Assembly (NCBI GenBank): GCA_913058335.1
Contig: CAJXPX010000015.1
Span: forward strand, 1 to 64,000
DNA from: an uncultured Hyphomonadaceae bacterium
Lineage (GTDB): Bacteria > Pseudomonadota > Alphaproteobacteria > Caulobacterales > Maricaulaceae
Length of the DNA stretch: 64,000 bases
Direction: 5' to 3'
This document shows positions 3,762 through 16,063 of this stretch, one piece after another (the stretch's first letter is position 1; each line of letters opens with the position of its first letter). A program made the translations under genes and the position numbers. The notes under the pieces were generated by a model. It did not search any database. It was given only the letters and a program-made list of their open reading frames with translations, and had not been told where the DNA came from.

Positions 3762-4337
3762 ATGAAACTAAATCATTTTAAATATTTGATAATATCCGGG
3801 GCTTTCTTGGCCTCACCTGTCTTGGCTCAAGACATTGTATATGAGCCAATTAATCCAAATTTTGGTGGAAATCCTTTCAATTCAGCGCACCTTTTAGGCG
3901 TAGCAAACGCCATAAATGGTTATGAAGATCCTGATCGGACGGCGAGCGGATTAGGAACATCTCAGGCCGATTTGTTTGTTCGCCAGCTGCAAAGTCGACT
4001 ATTATCAGGCCTTGCCTCAAACGTAACCGATGCAATTTTCGGCGATAACCCCCAAGATTCGGGGACAATCCAGTTCGGGTCTCAAACAATCACCTTTGTC
4101 CGCGGTCTATCCAGTATTCGACTGACTATTTTTGATAGTGACACGGGATCAACGACGGAAATTGAAATTCCTATCTTGAATGTTACCGGCGGAACTGATT
4201 CCACTGCGACAAGCTCGGCGTCATTTTCACCAGAAACAATTATAACATCGGGTTCGGATTTGACGGCAGGAACTTTTGGGTCGTCACCATTTTCAGATGT
4301 TATGCAAATACCGGAAGCAAATTCCGGAATGAATTAA
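3762..4337 (+). CDS. csgF: Curli assembly protein CsgF
   Basis: 191 residues with a signal peptide ending near residue 22 (VLAQ). The mature start DIVYEPINPNFGGNPFN is the conserved CsgF N-terminus, the segment that in Escherichia coli binds inside the CsgG pore and forms its second constriction. An N-rich helix and a C-terminal beta part follow. E. coli CsgF is about 138 residues; this one carries an extra Ser/Thr/Gly-rich C-terminal tail of about 50 residues. It acts in the outer membrane with CsgG to couple curlin secretion to nucleation at the surface. csgG follows 21 bp downstream, so they are surely cotranscribed. Confidence 0.9.
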   Translation: MKLNHFKYLIISGAFLASPVLAQDIVYEPINPNFGGNPFNSAHLLGVANAINGYEDPDRTASGLGTSQADLFVRQLQSRLLSGLASNVTDAIFGDNPQDSGTIQFGSQTITFVRGLSSIRLTIFDSDTGSTTEIEIPILNVTGGTDSTATSSASFSPETIITSGSDLTAGTFGSSPFSDVMQIPEANSGMN

Positions 4338-4358: not shown

Positions 4359-5399
4359 GTGGGAATTAAGAGGCACACTTTGTGTCGTAATGTATTACGA
4401 CCTTTGTTTTTAGTGGTGGCGGCAAGTACATTGTCAGCTTGCGTGACGCCGTTAAAGCAGATGGCGTCCCCGAACCAATTGCATCCGGCAAAAGTCAATC
4501 CGTCAACCATTACTCAAGATGAATTGAAACAACTTCCTGCGCCGTCCCAAAAGGTTGCTATTGCCGTCTATGGTTTTGACGACAAGACAGGACAATTTAA
4601 ACAAAGCGCTACAGGCCAAACCTTATCTAGAGCTGTAACACAGGGGCCGACTTCCATTCTGGTAAAAGCTCTCCAAGACGCGGGCACTAGAAAGTGGTTC
4701 GACGTCGTCGAACGTGAAAACCTCGACAACCTTCTTAATGAACGCAATATCATTCGGGAAATGCGGCAGCGTTATTTAGGTGAAAACACCGTAAACCCTC
4801 AGGCTTTACCGCCCCTTATGTTTGCCGGTGTCCTGCTGGAAGGCGGAATCATCAGTTATGATACAAATACAAAAACGGGTGGACTTGGGGCGCGCTATCT
4901 TGGAATAGGCGGAAATGTCGAATACCGGGAAGACACCGTAACAGTTTACTTGCGCGCCGTTAGCACGAAAACAGGGGCCGTGTTGAGTAACGTCACAACA
5001 TCACAACGTATCGCTTCGGTCGGTCTGGCCGCCAATGCCTTCCGTTTTATCGCATTTCAAGACCTTTTAGAGGTAGATTCCGGCGTGACGGTCAATCAAC
5101 CCACACAACTGGCCGTTCAGCAGGCTGTTGAAAAGGCCGTTTATGCCATGATCATGGACGGGGTTGATTCAGGTCTTTGGAGCTTTGCGGACCCTAGAGC
5201 GGGACAGACAACCTTGAATAATTTTCACAGACGCAACAGTCCAGAATATGTCGAAAAAGTTCTGGCAGAGCGTCCCGAATTGAACCAGCCTAATAAGTCA
5301 AAAACAATCAAAGCGGACCCTCCTAAAATCGGAGCCATCGCACAATTAAACAACAATGCAGTTTTAGAGACCCTAGAAGGTCCGGCTGCTGGAAGATAA
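4359..5399 (+). CDS. csgG: Curli secretion channel lipoprotein CsgG
   Basis: 346 residues. The start is GTG with an AGGGG ribosome-binding stretch upstream; the nearby ATG two bases earlier is out of frame. A lipoprotein signal ends in the lipobox LSAC with Cys28 lipidated. The body shows the CsgG core: VAVYGFDDKTGQF, the RKWFDVVERENLDNLLNERNII segment, GG(I)ISYDTNTKTGG and a C-terminal helix. Nine copies form the outer-membrane pore through which unfolded curlins pass. The protein is longer than E. coli CsgG (277 residues) because of an apparently unstructured tail after about residue 300. It follows csgF and precedes the fibre genes. Confidence 0.95.
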   Translation: MGIKRHTLCRNVLRPLFLVVAASTLSACVTPLKQMASPNQLHPAKVNPSTITQDELKQLPAPSQKVAIAVYGFDDKTGQFKQSATGQTLSRAVTQGPTSILVKALQDAGTRKWFDVVERENLDNLLNERNIIREMRQRYLGENTVNPQALPPLMFAGVLLEGGIISYDTNTKTGGLGARYLGIGGNVEYREDTVTVYLRAVSTKTGAVLSNVTTSQRIASVGLAANAFRFIAFQDLLEVDSGVTVNQPTQLAVQQAVEKAVYAMIMDGVDSGLWSFADPRAGQTTLNNFHRRNSPEYVEKVLAERPELNQPNKSKTIKADPPKIGAIAQLNNNAVLETLEGPAAGR

Positions 5400-5491
5400 G
5401 TGTCGGGGAAGACAGAAAGAGAAAATATAAGAAAAATTTAAAATGGCTTGAAATTTGCAAGTCAACTAAAAGAGAGACTTTCGGAACAAAG

Positions 5492-5504
5492 TTGGTGCTC
5501 GAAA
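5492..5504 (+). repeat. TTGGTGCTCGA motif, copy 1 of 4
   Basis: TTGGTGCTCGAAA. The core TGGTGCTCGA recurs at 5687-5696, 7530-7539 and 9032-9041, always in the non-coding leader ahead of a long curlin gene. It could be a protein-binding site or an mRNA element; which is unknown. Confidence 0.5.
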
Positions 5505-5685
5505 CCGAAAGCCTCTCCCAGGAATCGACTAAAGTAGTCGAACTTCCTAACTATCAGCTTGTGGGGGCGCAGGCAACAAGGGATGAGTCATGCTTGCAGC
5601 TCACCCCTGCCCGAACCCTCAAAAGTCAAAAATGAGAAGACGTCTTCTAGACGTTCGAACTACATTTAGCGGGTTTGTTAGAACA

Positions 5686-5698
5686 TTGGTGCTCGACA
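5686..5698 (+). repeat. TTGGTGCTCGA motif, copy 2 of 4
   Basis: TTGGTGCTCGACA, about 75 bp before the start codon of the first fibre gene, a distance close to that of copies 3 and 4 from their start codons (about 75-90 bp). The constant spacing supports a real regulatory element. Confidence 0.5.
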
Positions 5699-5772: not shown

Positions 5773-7443
5773 ATGAAAAAACTACTTATATTAACGGCGT
5801 CAATTGTCGCATTAACATCCGGCCAGGCTTACGCAAATAATTCCACCGTCAACCAAACCGGCGATGAAAATACAGCAACTGTTGATCAGACAGCAGGTGT
5901 CGAAGGCATGGCAACAATCAATCAGAATACAGATGAGAGCACAGCCTCTATCATCCAGCGTGACGGACCTCCGCAAAGCGCAGGATTTAGCGTTGCTAGC
6001 AACGTTGCCTCCATCAATCAGAATGGCGATCAATTCCAAGACGCAACAATCGACCAAACCAATGTCAATGGGAATGCGCCGCAAAACGAAGCCACAATCA
6101 ACCAGACCGGTCCCGGCGATGAGTTTATTGATGATGATGACGACAACCCGTCTCAGCAAGCCAGCATTCTGCAAAATGGCTCAGGAAACTTGGCGACCTC
6201 TACCCAGACCGGATCCGGTGCGGAGCTTTCCGAAACCACTCAGGTTGGTGACGGCAACTTGTCTCATGTCACGCAAGGCCCAACATCTTTTTCATTCGCG
6301 ACGGCTAATGTGAATCAAGACGGCAATAACAACGACTCATCCGTTGGCCAGTCCGGATTCAATCTGACAGCCGATGTCGACCAAATGGGTAACGGCAATA
6401 TCAGCGACGTTTTACAAAGCGGTCAGCCTGTCACAGGTGGAGTAGCAAGCGGCAATACAGCCACAGTTTTCCAAAGCGGCGACAATAATGACAGTGGCGT
6501 CAACCAAAATGGCAACAACAACACAGCGAATGTTTCCCAAACCGGTACTGGCGACACAAGTACAGTGACGCAATCCGGCGAAGATGGGGAAGCTACTATC
6601 CTTCAAAGCGGCACCGGTAACACCTCTGACGTCTTACAACAGGACAATGCCGGCGGCGCAGCCGTTGTAATGCAAAGCGGCGCTGATAACACCTCTAATG
6701 TAGAGCAGACTGCAGCCGGATCCGACGTCCTCGTGGACCAAACGGGTAATCGCAACACGTCTTTGGTCAATCAAGGCCGCGAAGCCGGCCATTCTTTCCA
6801 AACAAATGGACAGGAAGCCGTTATCGATCAATCAGGCCACGACAATATGTCTACCGCCATTCAAAGCGGATCTCGTGGTGATTTGTTTGTGGATCAATCC
6901 GGTAACAATAACACATCATCTGTAACGCAATCCGGTTTTGCCAACAGCTCAGGCGATAGCGACACGGCCGGGGATGCAACCCGTATCGTGGGTATCGACC
7001 AAATCGGTAACAATAACGGTAGCACTGTTACGCAGGGCGGCCAGTTATCAATGGCAAGCGTTGCACAAATCGGCGACAACAACATCAGTTCCATCGCCCA
7101 AGAACGCGGCGCAGGAAGCCTTGCGGGCCGCCGCATGACAGCAAGCGTCACTCAGGACGGTAATGGAAATGATAGCTCCATCACTCAAACCAACACTTTG
7201 GACGCAAATGCCCAGCTTGGAAACTCAGCCACTGTCTCACAGGGCGGCGATTTTAACACGTCTACCTTGTTCCAAGACGGAAATGGAAACAATGCTAGCG
7301 TCGACCAAGCCGGAAACAACAACATATCCATGTTGTCGCAAATCGGTTTTGACAACACAGCGACTGTTTCGCAAGCGAGCGATGGTAATATCTCCACCGT
7401 CAATCAAAACGGCACTGGCAATATTGCAACAGTAACCCAGTAA
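5773..7443 (+). CDS. Long curlin-repeat amyloid fibre protein 1 (CsgA-like)
   Basis: 556 residues. A signal peptide of about 22 residues (MKKLLILTASIVALTSGQAYA) is followed almost entirely by degenerate curlin repeats of the form xVxQxGxxNxSxVxQ, spaced about 20-25 residues. Gln and Asn recur at the strand-loop-strand positions that form the amyloid ladder in CsgA. With over 20 repeats it is nearly four times the size of E. coli CsgA (about 150 residues). Asp is common, so the protein is very acidic. It would be exported through CsgG and polymerise outside the cell. Its signal peptide and the FQTNGQ region (about 341-400) are close to fibre protein 3, showing that these two are paralogues. 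The ribosome-binding site is GGAAAG. Confidence 0.9.
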   Translation: MKKLLILTASIVALTSGQAYANNSTVNQTGDENTATVDQTAGVEGMATINQNTDESTASIIQRDGPPQSAGFSVASNVASINQNGDQFQDATIDQTNVNGNAPQNEATINQTGPGDEFIDDDDDNPSQQASILQNGSGNLATSTQTGSGAELSETTQVGDGNLSHVTQGPTSFSFATANVNQDGNNNDSSVGQSGFNLTADVDQMGNGNISDVLQSGQPVTGGVASGNTATVFQSGDNNDSGVNQNGNNNTANVSQTGTGDTSTVTQSGEDGEATILQSGTGNTSDVLQQDNAGGAAVVMQSGADNTSNVEQTAAGSDVLVDQTGNRNTSLVNQGREAGHSFQTNGQEAVIDQSGHDNMSTAIQSGSRGDLFVDQSGNNNTSSVTQSGFANSSGDSDTAGDATRIVGIDQIGNNNGSTVTQGGQLSMASVAQIGDNNISSIAQERGAGSLAGRRMTASVTQDGNGNDSSITQTNTLDANAQLGNSATVSQGGDFNTSTLFQDGNGNNASVDQAGNNNISMLSQIGFDNTATVSQASDGNISTVNQNGTGNIATVTQ

Positions 7444-7452
7444 ATAAACGCA

Positions 7453-7574
7453 CGGCGGGCCATCTGGCCCGCCGCACTCTTTTGGTGAGTCGAACGGGGC
7501 GCACCGAAAACTGATGACCGGACGAACTATGGTGCTCGAAACGGCCATCACAACCAATGCCTCAAAAGAGGCAC
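7453..7574 (+). repeat. 122-bp intergenic direct repeat, copy A
   Basis: This stretch is identical base for base to 8955-9076. It begins with a perfect hairpin (9-bp stem CGGCGGGCC/GGCCCGCCG, loop ATCT, 7453-7474). A second inverted repeat TTTTGGTG/CACCgAAAA follows, then the TGGTGCTCGA motif (7530-7539), and it ends with a small hairpin GCCTC-AAAA-GAGGC (7559-7572). Similarity continues less perfectly to the next start codon. The first hairpin follows the stop of fibre gene 1 by about 9 bp and may end transcription or protect the mRNA 3' end. Confidence 0.9.
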
Positions 7575-7616
7575 TTAACCGCCTAATATGTGGGCAAAAC
7601 GGGAAAGACTAAGATC

Positions 7617-8945
7617 ATGAAAAAGACAATTTACACAACCGCCAGCATTGCGGCTCTGCTTTTCGCGGCGCCCGCCTTTGCGCAAACGACACCTCCAACA
7701 TTTCCGACGACTCAATACTCGGATATTGACCAGAATGGTGAAGACAATGAAACCATTGTTGATCAAACTGGTGGTAGTGAAGGCGTATCCCAAATCGACC
7801 AGAACGGTGATGACAATTTCGCTAGCGTTGACCAGTCGGAAGATTCTCCTGGAGCAAACTCGTTTAACGTGCCTGCCAACACTGCAAATATCAATCAAAC
7901 AGGCGATAATTCCCGCGCACGCGTTGAACAGAACAGTACCGACGCTGGTTCAAATCCCGGAAACTCTGCTACGATTACACAAAACTCTAACGGCACAGTT
8001 CAAGGCCCGAATGGCGTACCTTCTGGCTTCAGCCTTAACGGCCGAATTGTCCAAAACGGTAGCGAAAACACGTCAACAATTGATCAGTCAGGCAACCCTA
8101 ATCAGCCCCCGAATGATGGCGCTGGTTCAGGTGTAACGGCGCGTAACGATCAGACTGGCACAAACAACCAATCTGACATTACACAAGATGTCTTCGGTCA
8201 AGATGCTAATCCATTCACCGATGCAAATGTCACCCAAGATGGCTCAGACCACAATTCCAGCGTGCGTCAACGAGGTTCAGAAGCGCTTGTTGATGTCATT
8301 CAAAACGGCGTGAATAACAGCTCCAACGTCTCGCAAGGTGCAAATAGAGAGATGACAGCAACTGTCACTCAATCAGGCTCAGATAATGAGAGTTTTGTTG
8401 ATCAAATCGCAAGAACTGTGACGGCGACAGTCACTCAAAGTGGTGTCGGTGGTAAATCCGATATTGACCAAATTGCTCAAAGCCGGGAATCAACGGCTAC
8501 TCTCGTTCAAGGCGGCATGGGTAATGATAACTTCATTGAACAAGCCAATGTGAGCGCCGAAGCCATGGTCACTCAAAATGGCACAGACAATGTCAGTGAC
8601 ATCTATCAAGCCGACGGCTCTGATGCGATGGCAACTGTGGTCCAAAATGGCGTAGATGGAACATCCCTCGTCCGTCAGTCTGGTGAAATGCAAACTGCCT
8701 CACTAACACAAGGCGGCGTCGGTAACTCAAGTGAAATACGTCAAGGCGTTGATGATAATGACGTTGCTACGCCTCCTTCCTCTGGCAACGTTGCGACAGT
8801 TACACAGTCTACCGACGACAATACCAGCCTGATCACCCAGCTTGGTTTAGACAACACAGCAACTATCGATCAATCTGCTACATCTGGAAATACTTCCTCC
8901 GTAATGCAGAGCGGCATGAATAATAACGCAACTGTAACTCAGTAA
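7617..8945 (+). CDS. Long curlin-repeat amyloid fibre protein 2 (CsgA-like)
   Basis: 442 residues from the ATG at 7617. An in-frame GTG at 7590 lies before the GGGAAAG ribosome-binding site and is not the start. A signal peptide ends near residue 23 (APAFAQ). The rest is curlin-type repeats (IDQNGEDNxTIVDQ and similar) about every 22 residues, interrupted by a few Pro/Gly-rich spacers such as NPNQPPNDGAGSG. It differs in sequence from fibre proteins 1 and 3 although its flanking leaders are identical. Expected to be secreted by CsgG and to form or decorate the extracellular amyloid. Confidence 0.9.
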   Translation: MKKTIYTTASIAALLFAAPAFAQTTPPTFPTTQYSDIDQNGEDNETIVDQTGGSEGVSQIDQNGDDNFASVDQSEDSPGANSFNVPANTANINQTGDNSRARVEQNSTDAGSNPGNSATITQNSNGTVQGPNGVPSGFSLNGRIVQNGSENTSTIDQSGNPNQPPNDGAGSGVTARNDQTGTNNQSDITQDVFGQDANPFTDANVTQDGSDHNSSVRQRGSEALVDVIQNGVNNSSNVSQGANREMTATVTQSGSDNESFVDQIARTVTATVTQSGVGGKSDIDQIAQSRESTATLVQGGMGNDNFIEQANVSAEAMVTQNGTDNVSDIYQADGSDAMATVVQNGVDGTSLVRQSGEMQTASLTQGGVGNSSEIRQGVDDNDVATPPSSGNVATVTQSTDDNTSLITQLGLDNTATIDQSATSGNTSSVMQSGMNNNATVTQ

Positions 8946-8954
8946 GTAATTATT

Positions 8955-9076
8955 CGGCGGGCCATCTGGCCCGCCGCACTCTTTTGGTGAGTCGAACGGG
9001 GCGCACCGAAAACTGATGACCGGACGAACTATGGTGCTCGAAACGGCCATCACAACCAATGCCTCAAAAGAGGCAC
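8955..9076 (+). repeat. 122-bp intergenic direct repeat, copy B
   Basis: Perfect copy of 7453-7574, placed in the same position relative to the stop of fibre gene 2 and the start of fibre gene 3. It has the same three hairpins (first 8955-8976, last 9061-9074) and the TGGTGCTCGA motif at 9032-9041. Identity of the spacer between divergent coding sequences points to gene conversion or to strong selection on the non-coding DNA. Confidence 0.9.
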
Positions 9077-9117: not shown

Positions 9118-11055
9118 ATGAAAAAACTTCTTATAGCAACCGCGTCGATTGTCGCTCTGACCGCAGGTCAAGCTTACGCGAACACATCGACAGTAGACCA
9201 AAATGGCGCGAATAACGGTGCCACTGTTACTCAAACTGACGGAACAGAAGGCGTAGCCATCATCAACCAAGGAAACGTTGAAGTCGGTTATGACGCAGAA
9301 GATAGCACTGCGTCTATCACACAACGTGACGACGACCCTGCAAGTGCAGGTTTCAGTACGCCAACGAATATGGGTACGATTAATCAGACCGGCACAAATA
9401 TGAACGCCGTTATCGACCAGACAAATGGCGACGGAAACAGTGCGACGAATACGGCGACAATTGACCAAGCGTCAGACGGAGCGTTTCTCGCAACGGGTTC
9501 TGCTGCCTCGCAAGAAGCTTCCATCACACAAAATGGTGAAGGCAATACGGCTACGTCATCGCAAGGTGGTACCAATGCATTCCCTCCTCCTACCCGTAGC
9601 GGACAAACTGTCTCTGTCTCCCAGGACGGAAACTTCAACACGGCGTCTACTAATCAAAAAGGTAACGATGGCGAAGCTAGCCTTGTTCAATTAGGCGACA
9701 TGAACAACGCAACTGTCGATCAGGGCGGAGCGACCAACATGTTTACGGCAACGCAAAACGGCAATAGTAACGTCTCCACTTCTGCTCAAAGCGGCAACAG
9801 CAATGACGCCAATGTGTCTCAAACGGGTAACGGAAACGACAGTGACGTCACGCAAGATGGCGGCAGCAACGGTTCTACAGCGTCTGTCATCCAAACCGGC
9901 GACGACAATGAGAGCAATATCACACAGACAGATGTCATTGGTGGCAATCCTGTTCCGCCGCGTTCTTCAAACGGCGCAATTGTTTCACAAACAGGGACTA
10001 GCCATTTAAGCACAGTCACCCAAGGCGGTGCTACAGACGGCAACAACATGGCTGATGTTAACCAAACCGGAACAGACCAATCAAGCACCGTGACTCAGTC
10101 TGGCGATTCATCTGTTGCTACTATTATTCAGTCGAATTCTGGAAATGAATCCTTTGTAACCCAAGAAGGTTCTGCGGGTGGAAATGCCATGATTAACCAA
10201 TCAGGTGTCGATAACACGTCCACTGTGAATCAGACATCAAGCGGATCTGTTGCAACCATCAATCAGAGCGGCGTGAGTAACTCCTCAACCTTGTCACAAG
10301 GTCGGGAAGCAACAACCAACTTCCAAACGAATGGCCAATCTGCACTGATTGAACAAAGTGGAGACGACAATGTCTCAACTGCTTCACAAAGTGGATCGCA
10401 GGGCGATTTAAACGTCAGCCAAAGTGGTGATCGTAACTTGTCAACTGTATCCCAGTCAGGCTTTGCGAATGCATCAGGTGATAGCGATCTTGGTGTTGTT
10501 GGCATCAATCAAATAGGTAGCGATAACATCAGTACAGTTACGCAGTCCGGACAGCTTTCCGATGCGACGGTTTTACAAATCTCAGATTCTAACACCGCTA
10601 CCATCAACCAAAGCGTCTCAAACAGCCCGAACCCTCCGGGCGGTCCAGACCCACGCGTTGCTACGGCGTCAATCGTACAGCAAGGTGGAACTCAAAATGT
10701 CAGCTCCATCACTCAGGAGCAGGATGATGTGAATAGTGGACGCTTGGCGTCTGCGGCCTCAACTCAGGACGGTAGTGGAAACACCAGCTCGATCACTCAG
10801 ACAAACTCTCTTGTCGCAGGTGCCGAGTCAAACAATACTGCGGACGCTTTCCAGCTTGGAGATGACAACCTGTCCACGATTGAACAAGATGGCGCATTTA
10901 ACGATGCGGATCTTGACCAGATCGGAAATAACAACATGTCCCTGATCTCGCAAATGGGAGAAGGCAACACCGCGACGGTTCTACAAGGTAGCGATGGCAA
11001 CATGTCTACTGTGACCCAAAACGGCATTGGCAACTCTGCCATGGTTACCCAATAG
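9118..11055 (+). CDS. Long curlin-repeat amyloid fibre protein 3 (CsgA-like)
   Basis: 645 residues from the ATG at 9118, with CAGGAAAG just upstream; the in-frame GTG at 9091 is too early. The signal peptide (MKKLLIATASIVALTAGQAYA) is almost that of fibre protein 1. About 28-30 curlin-like repeats follow, with conserved Gln/Asn/Ser ladders. The FQTNGQ, QGDLNVSQSG and GFANASGDSD blocks are shared with protein 1. It is the largest of the three. The set probably arose by duplication and then repeat gain or loss. It should be a major or variant fibre subunit. Confidence 0.9.
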   Translation: MKKLLIATASIVALTAGQAYANTSTVDQNGANNGATVTQTDGTEGVAIINQGNVEVGYDAEDSTASITQRDDDPASAGFSTPTNMGTINQTGTNMNAVIDQTNGDGNSATNTATIDQASDGAFLATGSAASQEASITQNGEGNTATSSQGGTNAFPPPTRSGQTVSVSQDGNFNTASTNQKGNDGEASLVQLGDMNNATVDQGGATNMFTATQNGNSNVSTSAQSGNSNDANVSQTGNGNDSDVTQDGGSNGSTASVIQTGDDNESNITQTDVIGGNPVPPRSSNGAIVSQTGTSHLSTVTQGGATDGNNMADVNQTGTDQSSTVTQSGDSSVATIIQSNSGNESFVTQEGSAGGNAMINQSGVDNTSTVNQTSSGSVATINQSGVSNSSTLSQGREATTNFQTNGQSALIEQSGDDNVSTASQSGSQGDLNVSQSGDRNLSTVSQSGFANASGDSDLGVVGINQIGSDNISTVTQSGQLSDATVLQISDSNTATINQSVSNSPNPPGGPDPRVATASIVQQGGTQNVSSITQEQDDVNSGRLASAASTQDGSGNTSSITQTNSLVAGAESNNTADAFQLGDDNLSTIEQDGAFNDADLDQIGNNNMSLISQMGEGNTATVLQGSDGNMSTVTQNGIGNSAMVTQ

Positions 11056-11076: not shown

Positions 11077-11098
11077 CGGCGCGCAGAGATGCGCGCCG
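11077..11098 (+). terminator. Hairpin after fibre gene 3
   Basis: Perfect 8-bp stem CGGCGCGC/GCGCGCCG with loop AGAGAT, 21 bp after the stop. It is followed by ACCTTTAATTT, so the U-tract is weak. It may work as a terminator or as a 3'-end stabiliser like the hairpins in the 122-bp repeats. Confidence 0.55.
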
Positions 11099-11124: not shown

Positions 11125-11153
11125 TATAATCAGTTTCTATGTGGAGATCAGAC

Positions 11154-11912
11154 ATGCGTTATCTCACGACTACACTCCTCGCTCTCGGGCTCAGCGGAAT
11201 ATCTGCGGCGGCTTCAGCGCAATCGGCCACAACGGTGGAGCAGATTGGCAATCGAACAAGCGCAGTTGTCGCCCACGATGGACTCGTAAATGGCACAACC
11301 GTCACCCAATCAGGATGGGATTTTGACGCAGATGTCGAGATCGTCGGAAATTCCAATAATCAAGGTACCGATGACAACAGGATTACGCAGACCGGACATG
11401 GTTCGAGCGCGACTGTAAACATTGTTGGCGACCGCAACACATTTGATATTGTGCAAGGGGGAAATGCCTCCTCTTCCGCCAATAATCAGGCGACACTGGA
11501 TGTCTTAGGGAATGACAATATAGCCGTTATTGGCCAGACAAATGACTTTGGCGAGACCTATGCTAATGACGCACAAATCATTCAGAATGGGTCGTATAAT
11601 ATTGCGCAGATCAACCAAACGGTCTCCCCTACTTTCTTATCTGGCGGCACGAACCGCGCGGTAATCAATCAAAGAGGCGACGAGAATGAGGCCTTGATTG
11701 ATCAAAAAGGTGCTGGGAATGATGCCCAAATCGAACAGGACGGCTTCAATAATTTTGGCTCCATATCTCAACAAGGCGACGGCTATACCGCCGCGTTAAG
11801 TCAGTTGGGAGACAATCTTGATTACTCTATCACGCAATCCCCTTGCCTTGTCGGTGCCGGGGCGTGCAGCGCAATGACCATGACAGTAACCCAAACGGGC
11901 GGCGGTCTATAA
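11154..11912 (+). CDS. Short curlin-repeat protein (possible nucleator, CsgB-like)
   Basis: 252 residues from the ATG at 11154, which has GGAG 8 bp upstream; another in-frame ATG at 11139 would lack a ribosome-binding site. A signal peptide of about 22 residues (AAASAQ) is followed by some ten curlin repeats (VEQIGNRTSAVV, INQRGDENEALIDQKGAGNDAQIEQ). Repeats are less regular than in the three long proteins. The C-terminus has an unusual Cys pair (SPCLVGAGACS). Its small size and place after the major subunits suggest the minor, nucleating subunit (CsgB role) that anchors fibres at the cell surface, but CsgA and CsgB cannot be separated by eye. Confidence 0.8.
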   Translation: MRYLTTTLLALGLSGISAAASAQSATTVEQIGNRTSAVVAHDGLVNGTTVTQSGWDFDADVEIVGNSNNQGTDDNRITQTGHGSSATVNIVGDRNTFDIVQGGNASSSANNQATLDVLGNDNIAVIGQTNDFGETYANDAQIIQNGSYNIAQINQTVSPTFLSGGTNRAVINQRGDENEALIDQKGAGNDAQIEQDGFNNFGSISQQGDGYTAALSQLGDNLDYSITQSPCLVGAGACSAMTMTVTQTGGGL

Positions 11913-11937: not shown

Positions 11938-12543
11938 ATGCAGACCAGACTTTTTTTAACCGGAGCGACCTTATCTTTAATGATGGCCGGAACCGCTTGG
12001 GCCCAAGACAATCCTATAGCCACCCTACAACTTGAAGAGTCTGCAAAACAGGTATCAAAAACAATACAAACCGATCAAATTCGTCCTGTCCAAAGTCAGG
12101 ATAAGGTTCAGTCGCGTAGCGTGGACCAAATCGGCCAACGAACTGCAGACCCGTCTTTTAGTGTTGATCAAGCCGAAGGCGGGGTAGACCGCTGTGATCC
12201 CGCTTATAAAGGGCCTGCTGAATGCGATAAATTTTCTGAGGGAGAAGCCATTTCGGCTCGGAAACGCAGTCAACGCAATCCGGAAGTGGACTTCGTTACA
12301 ACAGTTGACCCAAATTCCGGCACGTCCTTTATAGACCCCGTCGACGCCGCCAATCGGATTGGCCGCGGCGATACCAACGGCTCACAAGTTGCGGAGTCTT
12401 TAGGCCAAGACCTAATCACAAATGATCCGCCCGAAGACAATAAGGATGAACGTTTGCTTCTAGATGATTTTGGCGAATTGCCACCCGATTTTCTGCAAGA
12501 TATTCAAGGCCTCCCTCCAACTGTTGTCACAAGGGGTAATTAA
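11938..12543 (+). CDS. Unknown secreted protein of the curli locus
   Basis: 201 residues with a signal peptide ending at about residue 22 (TAWAQ). No family recognised. The mature protein is acidic and mostly polar. It has one curlin-like scrap (SRSVDQIGQR, about 60-69), two Cys in CDPAYKGPAEC, and a leucine/aspartate-rich tail. Its stop overlaps the start of the csgH-like gene by one base (TAATG), so the two are translationally coupled. No CsgE gene is seen in this locus. A periplasmic accessory or chaperone role is a guess from position only. Confidence 0.65.
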   Translation: MQTRLFLTGATLSLMMAGTAWAQDNPIATLQLEESAKQVSKTIQTDQIRPVQSQDKVQSRSVDQIGQRTADPSFSVDQAEGGVDRCDPAYKGPAECDKFSEGEAISARKRSQRNPEVDFVTTVDPNSGTSFIDPVDAANRIGRGDTNGSQVAESLGQDLITNDPPEDNKDERLLLDDFGELPPDFLQDIQGLPPTVVTRGN

Positions 12544-12929
12544 TGTTTGGACTTTTTTTAAAATCCAGTGTCGTTTTGGCGGCTCTCGCTGCCGCTTCGC
12601 CTGCGGTTAGTCATGAAAACAATGCGAAAGCTTGGATAGAGTTAGATAAAAAAGACGGCAAAGCCCAAATGCGAAGCATGGCCGAATGGCCCATGGATGC
12701 CACACTCAAATATAAACTGACATTAGAGAAAAAAAGCGCCTCTGGGCGGTCATCCACCAGTCAGGGCGGAACAGTTCAAAGCTCGGCCGGGGAAGCTGTA
12801 CAACTATCGGTCAGCTCAGTTGATTACGCATCCGGTACAGAAGTTATCGCTTCTCTTACGGTAACAGGGCCGGGGGGGCATGAAGTGACGGATGAAATCA
12901 ATCTGACGGCTGCATCACCGGAAGACTGA
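12543..12929 (+). CDS. csgH: CsgH-like periplasmic curlin gatekeeper
   Basis: 128 residues, signal peptide to about residue 23. The mature domain has alternating beta strands: KAWIELDKKDGKAQMRSMAEW, YKLTLEKKSASGRSSTSQGG, then AGEAVQLSVSSVDYASGTEVIASLTV. This pattern fits CsgH, the alphaproteobacterial counterpart of CsgC, an immunoglobulin-like protein that stops curlin from forming amyloid in the periplasm. The RSSTSQGG strand-turn region is the most family-like part. Its presence at the end of the curli transcript fits three long amyloid substrates that need to be held soluble. The last 32 bp overlap the 3' end of the convergent kinase gene. Confidence 0.8.
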   Translation: MFGLFLKSSVVLAALAAASPAVSHENNAKAWIELDKKDGKAQMRSMAEWPMDATLKYKLTLEKKSASGRSSTSQGGTVQSSAGEAVQLSVSSVDYASGTEVIASLTVTGPGGHEVTDEINLTAASPED

Positions 12930-13587
12930 CCTTAAACGTTGTCCCGCCTTGGGCATTATTGGAAAAACCAATATCCCAGCCATGAGCCTCACAAATTGCT
13001 TTGCAGATAGCTAGGCCCAGTCCAGAACCTTTAAAGTCGCTTTTGGAATGAAGGCGCATAAGAGGGTCGAAGACTTTGTCTGCCCCCTCACCTGTTATAC
13101 CAATGCCGTTATCAATGATATAAATGACTGCACTTTCATTTGTTTCGTCAAGTTTTATTAGAATGTTTGGCGACGTATCAAGAGCAACAAAGCGGCACGC
13201 ATTTTCGAGCAAATGTGTAAATAGCAGGAGCGACATATTTTGATCCGCTTTAACAGTTGGAAGACGCTGATCTTCTAGCGTAACGGATTGGCCAAACTTT
13301 AAATAGATCTGGGCGGAAACCACCTCTATAACTTCCTCTAAACTCACTTTGGTAATATCCGGAGTTTCTGTCAAACACTTCACATAGATTAGCAGGTTTT
13401 CGACCAGGTCGGACACTTCCTCGGTCGACTCTGTGAGCGCGTCTAGGTAAATTTCGCCGTCGCCTCCTAAAACGTCTGAATATTCAAGCATCATAAGTTC
13501 AGCGAACTGTCTGATTTTACGTAAAGGGGATTTTAGATCATGTCCGACCTTTTTTGATAAATCAGAGATCTGGTTTTTAGTTTTCAT
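12898..13587 (-). CDS. Soluble histidine kinase without sensor domain
   Basis: 229 residues from ATG; a TTG five codons further up (13602) is possible. No membrane segment. The H-box GHDLKSPLRKIRQFAE is only about 15 residues from the N-terminus. A HATPase_c domain follows with N-box LLENACRF, G1 DNGIGITG and G2 GSGLGLAICKAI. It lacks a dedicated sensory domain, so input must come from a partner or from the receivers encoded next to it. The gene overlaps csgH by 32 bp in convergent orientation. A link to curli or biofilm control is plausible but only positional. Confidence 0.85.
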   Translation of the reverse strand: MKTKNQISDLSKKVGHDLKSPLRKIRQFAELMMLEYSDVLGGDGEIYLDALTESTEEVSDLVENLLIYVKCLTETPDITKVSLEEVIEVVSAQIYLKFGQSVTLEDQRLPTVKADQNMSLLLFTHLLENACRFVALDTSPNILIKLDETNESAVIYIIDNGIGITGEGADKVFDPLMRLHSKSDFKGSGLGLAICKAICEAHGWDIGFSNNAQGGTTFKVSLPVMQPSD

Positions 13588-13707
13588 AACCAGAACGTCC
13601 AAGCGACAGAAAGGGAAAGACTTCTAACAGGTTCATGTTTACTCACGCCTTGTGCTTGACTCAAAAAAATGCGTTTAATTGAGCGGTCAAAGACAATCCG
13701 AAAGTAT

Positions 13708-14100
13708 TTAACGAATTGCAGATTTCAATTCGCTCAATTGGGGCCCAGCAAACTTTTTCTGGAAATATTCTTTGAGATAGAACTTTTCAACTATGTCATC
13801 GACATGCTGCCCGACTTCGCTTCGAAGAAATTCCTCATCTACCAAACTGGAAATAAGGGCTATCTCCGCTTCTCCTTTATGAGGCAACAAAACAGGCAAG
13901 GTATTTTTAGCGGAGACTCCACGCGGCATCATATTATCCAATAAAATCAAGTCGTATTTTTTGGCTTTTAAATGATCAACGGCTTCGCCCACAGTTAGAG
14001 CGAAATCGAGTTGGAACGCTTTGCCGACGGATTTCCTCAACGCAAGGTCAATAAGTTTCGCCTCAATTTTCTCATCATCAAGTAATAAAATTTGTATCAT
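13708..14100 (-). CDS. Stand-alone response-regulator receiver (Rcp1-like)
   Basis: 130 residues, a single receiver domain. The acidic pair Asp8-Asp9 and the phospho-acceptor Asp55 in YDLILLDNMMP are present. No output domain. It lies 121 bp upstream of the kinase gene on the same strand, so it is a likely partner in a phosphorelay. The strongest unknown is the final target. Confidence 0.85.
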   Translation of the reverse strand: MIQILLLDDEKIEAKLIDLALRKSVGKAFQLDFALTVGEAVDHLKAKKYDLILLDNMMPRGVSAKNTLPVLLPHKGEAEIALISSLVDEEFLRSEVGQHVDDIVEKFYLKEYFQKKFAGPQLSELKSAIR

Positions 14101-14125
14101 AAAAGTTCTTCAAACATTTTTGCAA

Positions 14126-14542
14126 TTATGCAGCAAGACGCCATTGCCGCGCAACATAGGCTATCAGACGTCTTTCATCGCTTCGCAATTCACCGTCACA
14201 TTTTGCTATTGACTGCATCGCCCTAATAATTGTGATCTTGTCCTCTACCTCTTCAAGTTGGTTCATGTGCATCTGTATTTCGCGCTCTTCGTGGCCCAAT
14301 TGCACAATTTGTAAAACCTCGTCACGGTTAAGGACAAACCAGTCTTTCAACATATGATCTGTTAAAACTAAATTTGGGCTCAAAATAGATTTTACGCGCT
14401 TTGTCATTAAAATGAACATAGTCATTTCTTCATGATAAATGCGCTTTTTGGATAAAATTACAAACATAAATATCTTGAAAATATGACGCCACTTTGAGGC
14501 GGCCAGTTCAAGAGATTCGAATTCATTGGAGTTATGAGACAT
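14126..14542 (-). CDS. Hypothetical protein with TerB-like C-terminus
   Basis: 138 residues. The C-terminal 40 residues (IIRAMQSIAKCDGELRSDERRLIAYVARQ) resemble the helical repeat of TerB-like proteins, with the acidic D-G-E-L..DE-R motif. The N-terminal half is helical and basic and matches nothing I recognise. It sits 25 bp upstream of the receiver gene and is likely cotranscribed with it. Function unknown. Confidence 0.6.
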   Translation of the reverse strand: MSHNSNEFESLELAASKWRHIFKIFMFVILSKKRIYHEEMTMFILMTKRVKSILSPNLVLTDHMLKDWFVLNRDEVLQIVQLGHEEREIQMHMNQLEEVEDKITIIRAMQSIAKCDGELRSDERRLIAYVARQWRLAA

Positions 14543-14621
14543 CTACATTGTCCTTATAGTTCCACAAAATTAGCGTCTCCAGCTTAATTTAGGCTTAACC
14601 AAACTACCATTTTGGTAGACC

Positions 14622-14647
14622 AAAAAAAAGCCGCTCCGTAGAGCGGC
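14622..14647 (-). terminator. Rho-independent terminator
   Basis: On the minus strand a 7-bp stem GCCGCTC/GAGCGGC with loop TACG is followed by eight T. It lies about 50 bp after the stop of the small secreted protein (14696-15037) and should end that transcript before the TerB-like gene. Confidence 0.85.
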
Positions 14648-14669
14648 AAAGTGAGTGCCCTAAGGACTA

Positions 14670-14679
14670 GGGGGGGGGG
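14670..14679. repeat. Homopolymer of ten G
   Basis: A run of ten G (C on the minus strand) between the stop of the gene at 14696 and its terminator. Such runs are prone to slippage in replication and in sequencing. Being in a 3' untranslated region it would not shift a reading frame. Confidence 0.9.
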
Positions 14680-14695
14680 TAAGATTGATTTAAAC

Positions 14696-15037
14696 TTAGT
14701 CGGAGTAGAGGTTTCTCATAGATGATTTCATTTTTTCTTTGTTGCTTTGAGTAATGATTTTCATAGCACCCGCCGCATAATGCGGGGTAACAACCAAACC
14801 TCGACTACTGGTTTGACGCAAAACACGGTTTTGCCGGGGTAAGGGTTCTCTTATGACCCTCATTTTTTTGGTTGTCGCAAATTCGGGGGCTTTTAATTGA
14901 TAGGAATTAAAGCCCTGAGAAGAAATTGCTTGGGTCGAAAAAGACGGGCTAGTTTTGGCAGAGCCATTATTAGCCTCAGCGCTTACAGTACCAACAGCCA
15001 AAAAAGCGGAGGTAAGAATAATTTGCGAAAGTTTCAT
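14696..15037 (-). CDS. Small secreted hypothetical protein
   Basis: 113 residues from the ATG at 15037, which is preceded by GGAGAAG; longer readings start upstream of that site. A signal peptide of about 20 residues (VGTVSAEA) is followed by a Ser/Gln-rich linker and a basic region with many Arg/Lys (RVIREPLPRQNRVLRQ). No family recognised. It has its own terminator, so it is a single-gene unit within the signalling block. Confidence 0.65.
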   Translation of the reverse strand: MKLSQIILTSAFLAVGTVSAEANNGSAKTSPSFSTQAISSQGFNSYQLKAPEFATTKKMRVIREPLPRQNRVLRQTSSRGLVVTPHYAAGAMKIITQSNKEKMKSSMRNLYSD

Positions 15038-15242
15038 TGTCACTTCTCCGGGGCGTCCGCTCAAATTCAGGATTGAATATGTAACAGCGCGATGAAACCT
15101 ATATAGCTCAAGCCATTTGACCCAAAGCTGAACCAACTAAACAGAATTACTAATTTCGCTTTAACTATAACTGTTCAGGTTGAAAGACAGAGACATTCAA
15201 AAACCAGGCTCACTGCCAACGCCTATTTATTAGGCCGTCCCC

Positions 15243-15611
15243 TTAGAGAATAGCCAGGTTTCTTGAGAGAACAGACTTTAAGTCATTTTTGTCATAAATC
15301 CCGTCAACACCCGTCACGTTCCTGTCCCTTAAATGGGAACTATCCAAGGAAGACGAAATAGCAAAAACTTTCGCGTATCCCATATGGGAACGTATTTGAG
15401 GCAAGGTTTCTAAGAGGCTCGAATAAGGAGGAAGACGGTCATCCAGAAAGACGCAATCAAAAGGCCTGTCTGCCAGAATTCTGACCGCTTCGTTTAAATC
15501 AGAGCTACATACAAGCTCGGCCTCAGAGTTCACGCCTCGGGAAAGAAACTTTCTAAATAACCTGTGTTCTATGGGATCGTCATCAATCAACAATATCCGC
15601 AAATGAGTCAT
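15243..15611 (-). CDS. Stand-alone response-regulator receiver
   Basis: 122 residues, one receiver domain. The acidic cluster IDDD (about 9-12) and the phosphorylation site VFLDD (Asp57 most likely) are clear. A Lys in IYDKNDL near the end stands for the conserved lysine. No output domain. It lies 56 bp downstream of another receiver gene on the same strand and may receive phosphate from the PAS kinase encoded further upstream. Confidence 0.85.
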   Translation of the reverse strand: MTHLRILLIDDDPIEHRLFRKFLSRGVNSEAELVCSSDLNEAVRILADRPFDCVFLDDRLPPYSSLLETLPQIRSHMGYAKVFAISSSLDSSHLRDRNVTGVDGIYDKNDLKSVLSRNLAIL

Positions 15612-15667
15612 CCCAAAACGTCAAACAAATTTTACAAGCGGAAATTTTTAACAGGAGCGAACACAGC

Positions 15668-16063
15668 TTATTCCGGCTGCAATCTTTCAAACACACTTTT
15701 ATAAATGACTTGCGCCAATTCACCATATCCTAAAAATGAATCAGGCTTGACCAGATAACCATCTGCGCCGAACTCATTTGCCATGCTTTTATCGCTCGTC
15801 TCGTCTGACCCTGAAACCATAATGACAGGATGCGACCTGGTTTTAGTGTCTTCTCTAATTGCCTTTAAGACCTGAAATCCGTCTATTCCTGGCATTCGAA
15901 TATCTAGTAAAGTCGCGAGTGGGCTTTCAGATTTAATTGTTGAAACAGCCTCTCGGCCACTAGCTAGCTCAATAATTTCCAAATCAGACTCTACCTTCAG
16001 CAATGCCTTTTTTATGAGCAGCCGATCTGTTTTATCGTCATCAATAATGAGAATTTTTCTCAT
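15668..16063 (-). CDS. Stand-alone response-regulator receiver (CheY-like)
   Basis: 131 residues. Receiver motifs are textbook: IIDDDKTD at 7-14, phospho-acceptor Asp54 in TLLDIRMPG, a conserved MVSGSD switch region, and Lys in GYLVKPDSF. It begins 7 bp after the stop of the PAS histidine kinase, so kinase and receiver are one transcription unit and a likely pair. No output domain is fused. Confidence 0.9.
   Translation of the reverse strand: MRKILIIDDDKTDRLLIKKALLKVESDLEIIELASGREAVSTIKSESPLATLLDIRMPGIDGFQVLKAIREDTKTRSHPVIMVSGSDETSDKSMANEFGADGYLVKPDSFLGYGELAQVIYKSVFERLQPE

Follow-up and report, generated by a model that had tools for sequence, protein, structure and literature searches.

In the curli gene locus of an uncultured Hyphomonadaceae bacterium, the two spacers lying between three large curlin genes contain the same 122 bp, at positions 7453-7574 and 8955-9076 of the window (the whole 64-kb stretch of DNA that was analyzed; forward strand), and the copies agree base for base, as the initial annotation had claimed. 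Judged from these sequences, recent gene conversion would account for this identity better than selection acting on each base. It appears fairly probable that the block is a spacer module shared within a tandem array of curlins, composed of a terminator-like hairpin and a motif-bearing leader, which has been recently gene-converted. The motif of this leader recurs in csg leaders, inside and outside this genome.

The csg locus and its repeated spacers

The row of genes comprises, on the forward strand, csgF (3762-4337; Pfam CsgF, 105.4 bits, cut-off 25.8), csgG (4359-5399; Pfam CsgG, 211.3 bits, cut-off 20.8), three large curlins, a small curlin, an open reading frame (ORF) without a Pfam match and a CsgH-like gene. 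Large curlins 1 (5773-7443, 556 aa), 2 (7617-8945, 442 aa) and 3 (9118-11055, 645 aa) contain 13, 5 and 14 stretches matching Pfam Curlin_rpt, respectively, and the small curlin (11151-11912), which by size and place is probably CsgB-like, contains 3. As expected of a curli operon, CsgG and CsgF are accompanied by four curlin-repeat proteins over the Pfam cut-off. The CsgH-like gene (12543-12929) scores 21.0 bits against Pfam CsgH (E-value 0.00035), which falls short of the cut-off of 27, and the ORF between it and the small curlin (11938-12543) has 201 aa. Adjoining the row within 12898-16063, the minus strand encodes a histidine kinase, with the Pfam domains HATPase_c and HisKA, and contains ORFs that by eye resemble response regulators; these are possible regulators.

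Like alphaproteobacterial curli operons, the locus lines up csgF and csgG with curlin-repeat genes and with a gene that resembles csgH, albeit below the cut-off; it differs from them in having three large curlins with two identical spacers. According to the relevant passages of a 2012 survey (PMC3521004), csgH adjoins csgA/B in Alphaproteobacteria, these bacteria are without csgD, and large CsgA homologues with up to 22 repeats exist elsewhere; the same passages do not mention the spacers, and the words “intergenic” and “hairpin” are absent from the main text of that survey.

The borders of the repeat are exact, as the match cannot be extended by one base on either side, and the pair is the only exact direct repeat of at least 22 bp in the window. 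Each copy begins 9 nt past the stop codon of one curlin and stops 41-42 nt short of the start codon of the next, the two being spaced 1502 bp apart. To the left of the block, ungapped identity between the spacers is 67% over 30 nt, and to the right it is 80-85% over 40 nt with a 1-nt shift, after which it drops within the genes. The large curlins are diverged paralogues, 33-47% identical at the protein level (47% between curlins 1 and 3, 33-37% between curlin 2 and either), so that the genes themselves have not been homogenized; the divergence of the genes between and around the repeats, also part of the initial annotation, is thereby borne out. A dispersed or mobile repeat can be ruled out, since the genome has just two copies of the block.

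Hairpins of the block

The block had been credited with three hairpins; hairpins are indeed predicted, but folding of the strand gives four. A terminator-like GC hairpin, which the terminator scan picks out as well, occupies 7453-7474 and is followed by the tail CACTCTTTTG (the segment 7444-7480 folds at -21.8 kcal/mol), a second hairpin at 7480-7509 has a T run as its 5' arm, a third at 7512-7550 encloses the motif at 7530-7539, and a fourth stem-loop lies at 7558-7573. In both copies the terminator-like stem has nine G-C pairs, and its T run is short (CACTCTTTT). The terminator scan of the region returned 18 terminator-like sites against 11.6 in shuffled sequences; with this ratio and the short T run, termination is uncertain and a scan match is weak by itself, the nine-G-C-pair stem being the better argument. 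Another GC hairpin, of different sequence, follows curlin 3 (11077-11098), and by eye, uncounted, GC hairpins also stand 3' of many curlins in related spacers.

The earlier interpretation of the block as a terminator plus a leader fits this layout. Its first 22 bp would act as a leaky terminator, probably ending part of the transcripts after each curlin, or alternatively might protect transcript 3' ends, and the rest would make up the greater part of the following curlin's 5' leader, with the TGGTGCTCGA hairpin in it.

Origin of the identity

A recent exchange is supported by the contrast between the block and its homologous surroundings: none of the 122 positions of the block differs, compared to 7 of 41 positions, plus one indel, in the short homologous flank that separates the block from the start codons (Fisher p 4e-5). 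The 95% upper limit of divergence within the block is 2.4%. Identity inside and diverged homologous flanks outside are the pattern known from gene conversion between tandem paralogues, from which the present case differs in that the tract is wholly non-coding and lies between genes.

The leader of curlin 1 provides an older point of comparison. It is a paralogue of leader 2, identical to it at 72 of 122 aligned positions (59%), an alignment matched by none of 1000 shuffles, and it retains the motif, the GAGGCAC arm, the ribosome-binding region and GAAAGACTAA, while the linkers between them differ. The linkers are thus free to change over a longer run, and their identity between leaders 2 and 3 suggests that copying took place recently. 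We infer that the two spacers are old paralogues whose middle 122 bp would have been recently overwritten, one by the other, through homologous recombination, leaving the diverged flanks in place.

Two other histories of the identical tract were weighed against this one. Curlin 2 may have arrived recently together with its own block, either by duplication or as foreign DNA recombining inside the block, in which case the copies have been identical since its birth. The position of curlin 2 as the outlier among the large curlins agrees with such an arrival; we nevertheless regard it as unlikely, given that the spacers remain homologous past the block, with 34 of 41 positions matching up to the start codon, which indicates that the paralogues had already diverged. 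Still less probable is that the copies have stayed identical, with no recent exchange, through purifying selection acting on the entire non-coding block. In favor of this, the predicted hairpins span most of the block, and leader 1 retains both the motif and GAGGCAC, but the linkers of leader 1 have changed and the flank beside the ribosome-binding region, which is likely to be constrained too, has diverged.

The distribution of the spacers among other curli loci also speaks against selection on the entire block. No match to it was found in the 59 relatives searched, 17 of them of the same genus; csgG, however, is patchy in this genus, being present in 2 of 18 genomes including this one (some of the genomes are incomplete), so the close relatives are unable to test the block. 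The other csgG-bearing genome of the genus has, by ORF pattern, one large curlin and a different leader. A wider set of 44 loci was assembled from 40 stretches with strong csgG hits, three named Sphingomonadales loci and the window, leaving aside the weaker G371, G308 and G441 and the class-level csgG hits. Six of the 44 with fewer than two curlin ORFs by pattern (L066, L067, L068, L076, L096 and L097) were excluded from the repeat comparison, and the 37 other loci compared have at least two candidate curlin ORFs each, some of these being overlapping frames or over-extended. An identical spacer pair occurs in none of the 37, where exact repeats near the curlins reach 22 bp at most. Identical spacers are therefore particular to this genome among the loci examined, and they can be ruled out as a rule of curli arrays.

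Of the two explanations offered initially, gene conversion or selection on the non-coding sequence, the former fits and the latter is disfavored for the block as a whole by leader 1 and the 37 loci, whereas selection on parts of the block, above all on the motif, is supported. That curlin 2 is lost and regained within the population by recombination between the copies, making the fibre set phase-variable as had been proposed, is highly improbable: repeats of this length and spacing would delete cleanly to leave curlin 1, one block and curlin 3, so deletion of fibre gene 2 is possible, but direct repeats permit deletion and not inversion, the deletion cannot be undone in the way it arose, a search of the window gave no exact inverted repeat of at least 20 bp, and such a one-way loss is not called phase variation.

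The motif in csg leaders

The motif TGGTGCTCGA, which had been noticed in the block, is present in both copies (7530-7539 and 9032-9041), and two further occurrences, at 5493 and 5687, precede curlin 1. These four copies of the motif, against 0.17 expected in the window, all lie in leaders of large curlins, so that every large curlin of this genome has its own; the proximal copies precede the three start codons by 85, 86 and 85 nt.

Outside this genus, the motif was found in two further settings. In L064, from another genus of the same family (csgG 63-65% identical), the csgG-curlin leader contains TGGTGCTCG twice; at least two occurrences were seen in 4 of 200 shuffles of this 17-kb stretch. 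Across the 44 loci, the first 450 nt downstream of csgG contain TTGGYGCTCG 10 times (0.1 expected), in nine loci, and the remaining 1.62 Mb contain it 8 times; these nine are the window and eight loci of one clade of a second family. With 9 of 44 leaders, the motif is unsupported as a universal csg element. The looser TGGYGCTCG is found in 12 of the 44 loci, but in L086 and L100 it falls within curlin coding sequence.

A search of 105 genomes of the second family gave 13 matches, nine of them directly after csgF-csgG, including one in G828, where csg had not been previously recognized. The reversed control pattern has 28 matches in all (the sum of two columns) in the same genomes, so the number of matches means nothing and the argument rests on their place. 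The motif lies 94 nt from the csgG stop codon in the window, 47 nt in L064, and 99, 111 and 102 nt in L073, L074 and L097. All second-family motif loci in the comparison come from a single genus (g20), so that about three independent lineages support the motif. Same-strand ORFs over the four second-family matches away from csgG have 15, 138, 296 and 476 codons and those over the nine matches after csgG have 26-131; the ranges overlap, and ORF length fails to separate real from chance matches.

Genome-wide, TGGTGCTCG occurs 19 times against 7 for the reversed control. Four occurrences are in csg leaders, one other is apparently intergenic (L106, 1501-1509) and 14 overlap candidate ORFs of 128-728 codons, so that a genome-wide regulon is unsupported. 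The L106 site, the sole other apparently intergenic one of the genome, lies upstream of a membrane-protein-like ORF, and its other strand carries the complement of the motif.

Relatives of csgG were also seen on 47 plasmid records from many genera, and curli genes may travel on plasmids; three 60-kb Sphingobium plasmids (within L129-L135 and the plasmid collection) have long ORFs after csgG. In seven plasmid-borne csg loci, searched on the csgG strand, the motif has four matches, none of them in a csg leader.

RNA element or DNA site

At several of its sites a long hairpin carries the motif close to its tip, the stems being unrelated in sequence from one site to another. This is the case after csgG in the window (hairpin 5472-5518, motif at 5493), at position 5941 of L064 and in the second family. 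Compared to shuffled flanks, the enclosing stem has p-values, uncorrected, of 0.002 at 5493, 0.006 at 7530 and 0.022 at L064 5941, and of 0.016-0.098 in six distinct second-family sequences, which are close relatives of one another. No significant enclosing stem was found at the proximal copy of curlin 1 (5687-5696, p 0.68) or at L064 6210 (p 0.38); the two matches in coding sequence gave 0.38 and 0.58. When the motif leaders are aligned, the stems are not in register.

The stem evidence leans toward an RNA element rather than a DNA-binding site. It is possible, and we propose it tentatively, that the curli leaders of part of the order contain an undescribed cis-acting RNA element, UUGGYGCUCG (UGGUGCUCG in some) near a hairpin tip, that would be bound by a protein or a small RNA, and that in this genome spacer recombination keeps two copies alike, giving the subunits the same signal. 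The factor bound by the leader motif might control curlin expression by setting translation or stability of each curlin.

A DNA-binding site for a transcription regulator, at promoters before each curlin, appears somewhat less likely. Such a site would account for the conserved core sequence and for the two motif copies without a significant enclosing stem, but stems of unrelated sequence surround the motif at 5493, 7530, L064 5941 and in the second family, and the promoter scan, which covers the sigma-70 type only, gave 4 promoter-like sites compared to 10.1 in shuffles, none of them in the spacers.

The putative RNA element has no counterpart among the families of Rfam. Between 3000 and 13000, the only Rfam match up to an E-value of 1 is a sub-threshold snoRNA inside curlin 2, and in 14 other loci the matches at the gathering score are two tRNAs and one cobalamin riboswitch, none of them between csgG and a curlin. 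A known RNA family or cis-regulatory RNA is ruled out in that no Rfam family fits. With the structured leaders and riboswitches of Rfam the element shares a conserved core near hairpin tips and a set place between two genes, differing from them in lacking a family match.

Two further features of the leaders were observed. The GAGGCAC arm (7565-7573; GAGGCACT in leader 1) is present in all three leaders, its partner arm changing from TGCCTC to GCTTC, and by eye GAGGCAC could also pair with the motif's GGTGCTC, so that an alternative structure is possible. In addition, six hairpins with a TGGCAG hexaloop and at least five stem pairs lie within 450 nt downstream of csgG (0.04 expected), spread over 4 of the 44 loci, and three in the other 1.64 Mb. 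The six lie +96 and +141 nt from the csgG stop codon in L005, +87 and +131 in L007, +152 in L076 and +230 in L081, and may represent a second csg-leader element, of Sphingosinicella and one other genus.

Implications for curli biology

Most of what is known about the control of curli comes from enteric bacteria. At the level of titles and abstract openings, nothing on curlin spacers or on the motif was found in the curli and gene-conversion literature. The repeat is readily explained as something that recombination ordinarily produces where genes stand in tandem, and it is the motif, more than the repeat, that deserves a second look, as it may be an undescribed control element. If the motif holds up, a conserved leader element would offer a handle on fibre production in Alphaproteobacteria and on the ratios of the fibre subunits.
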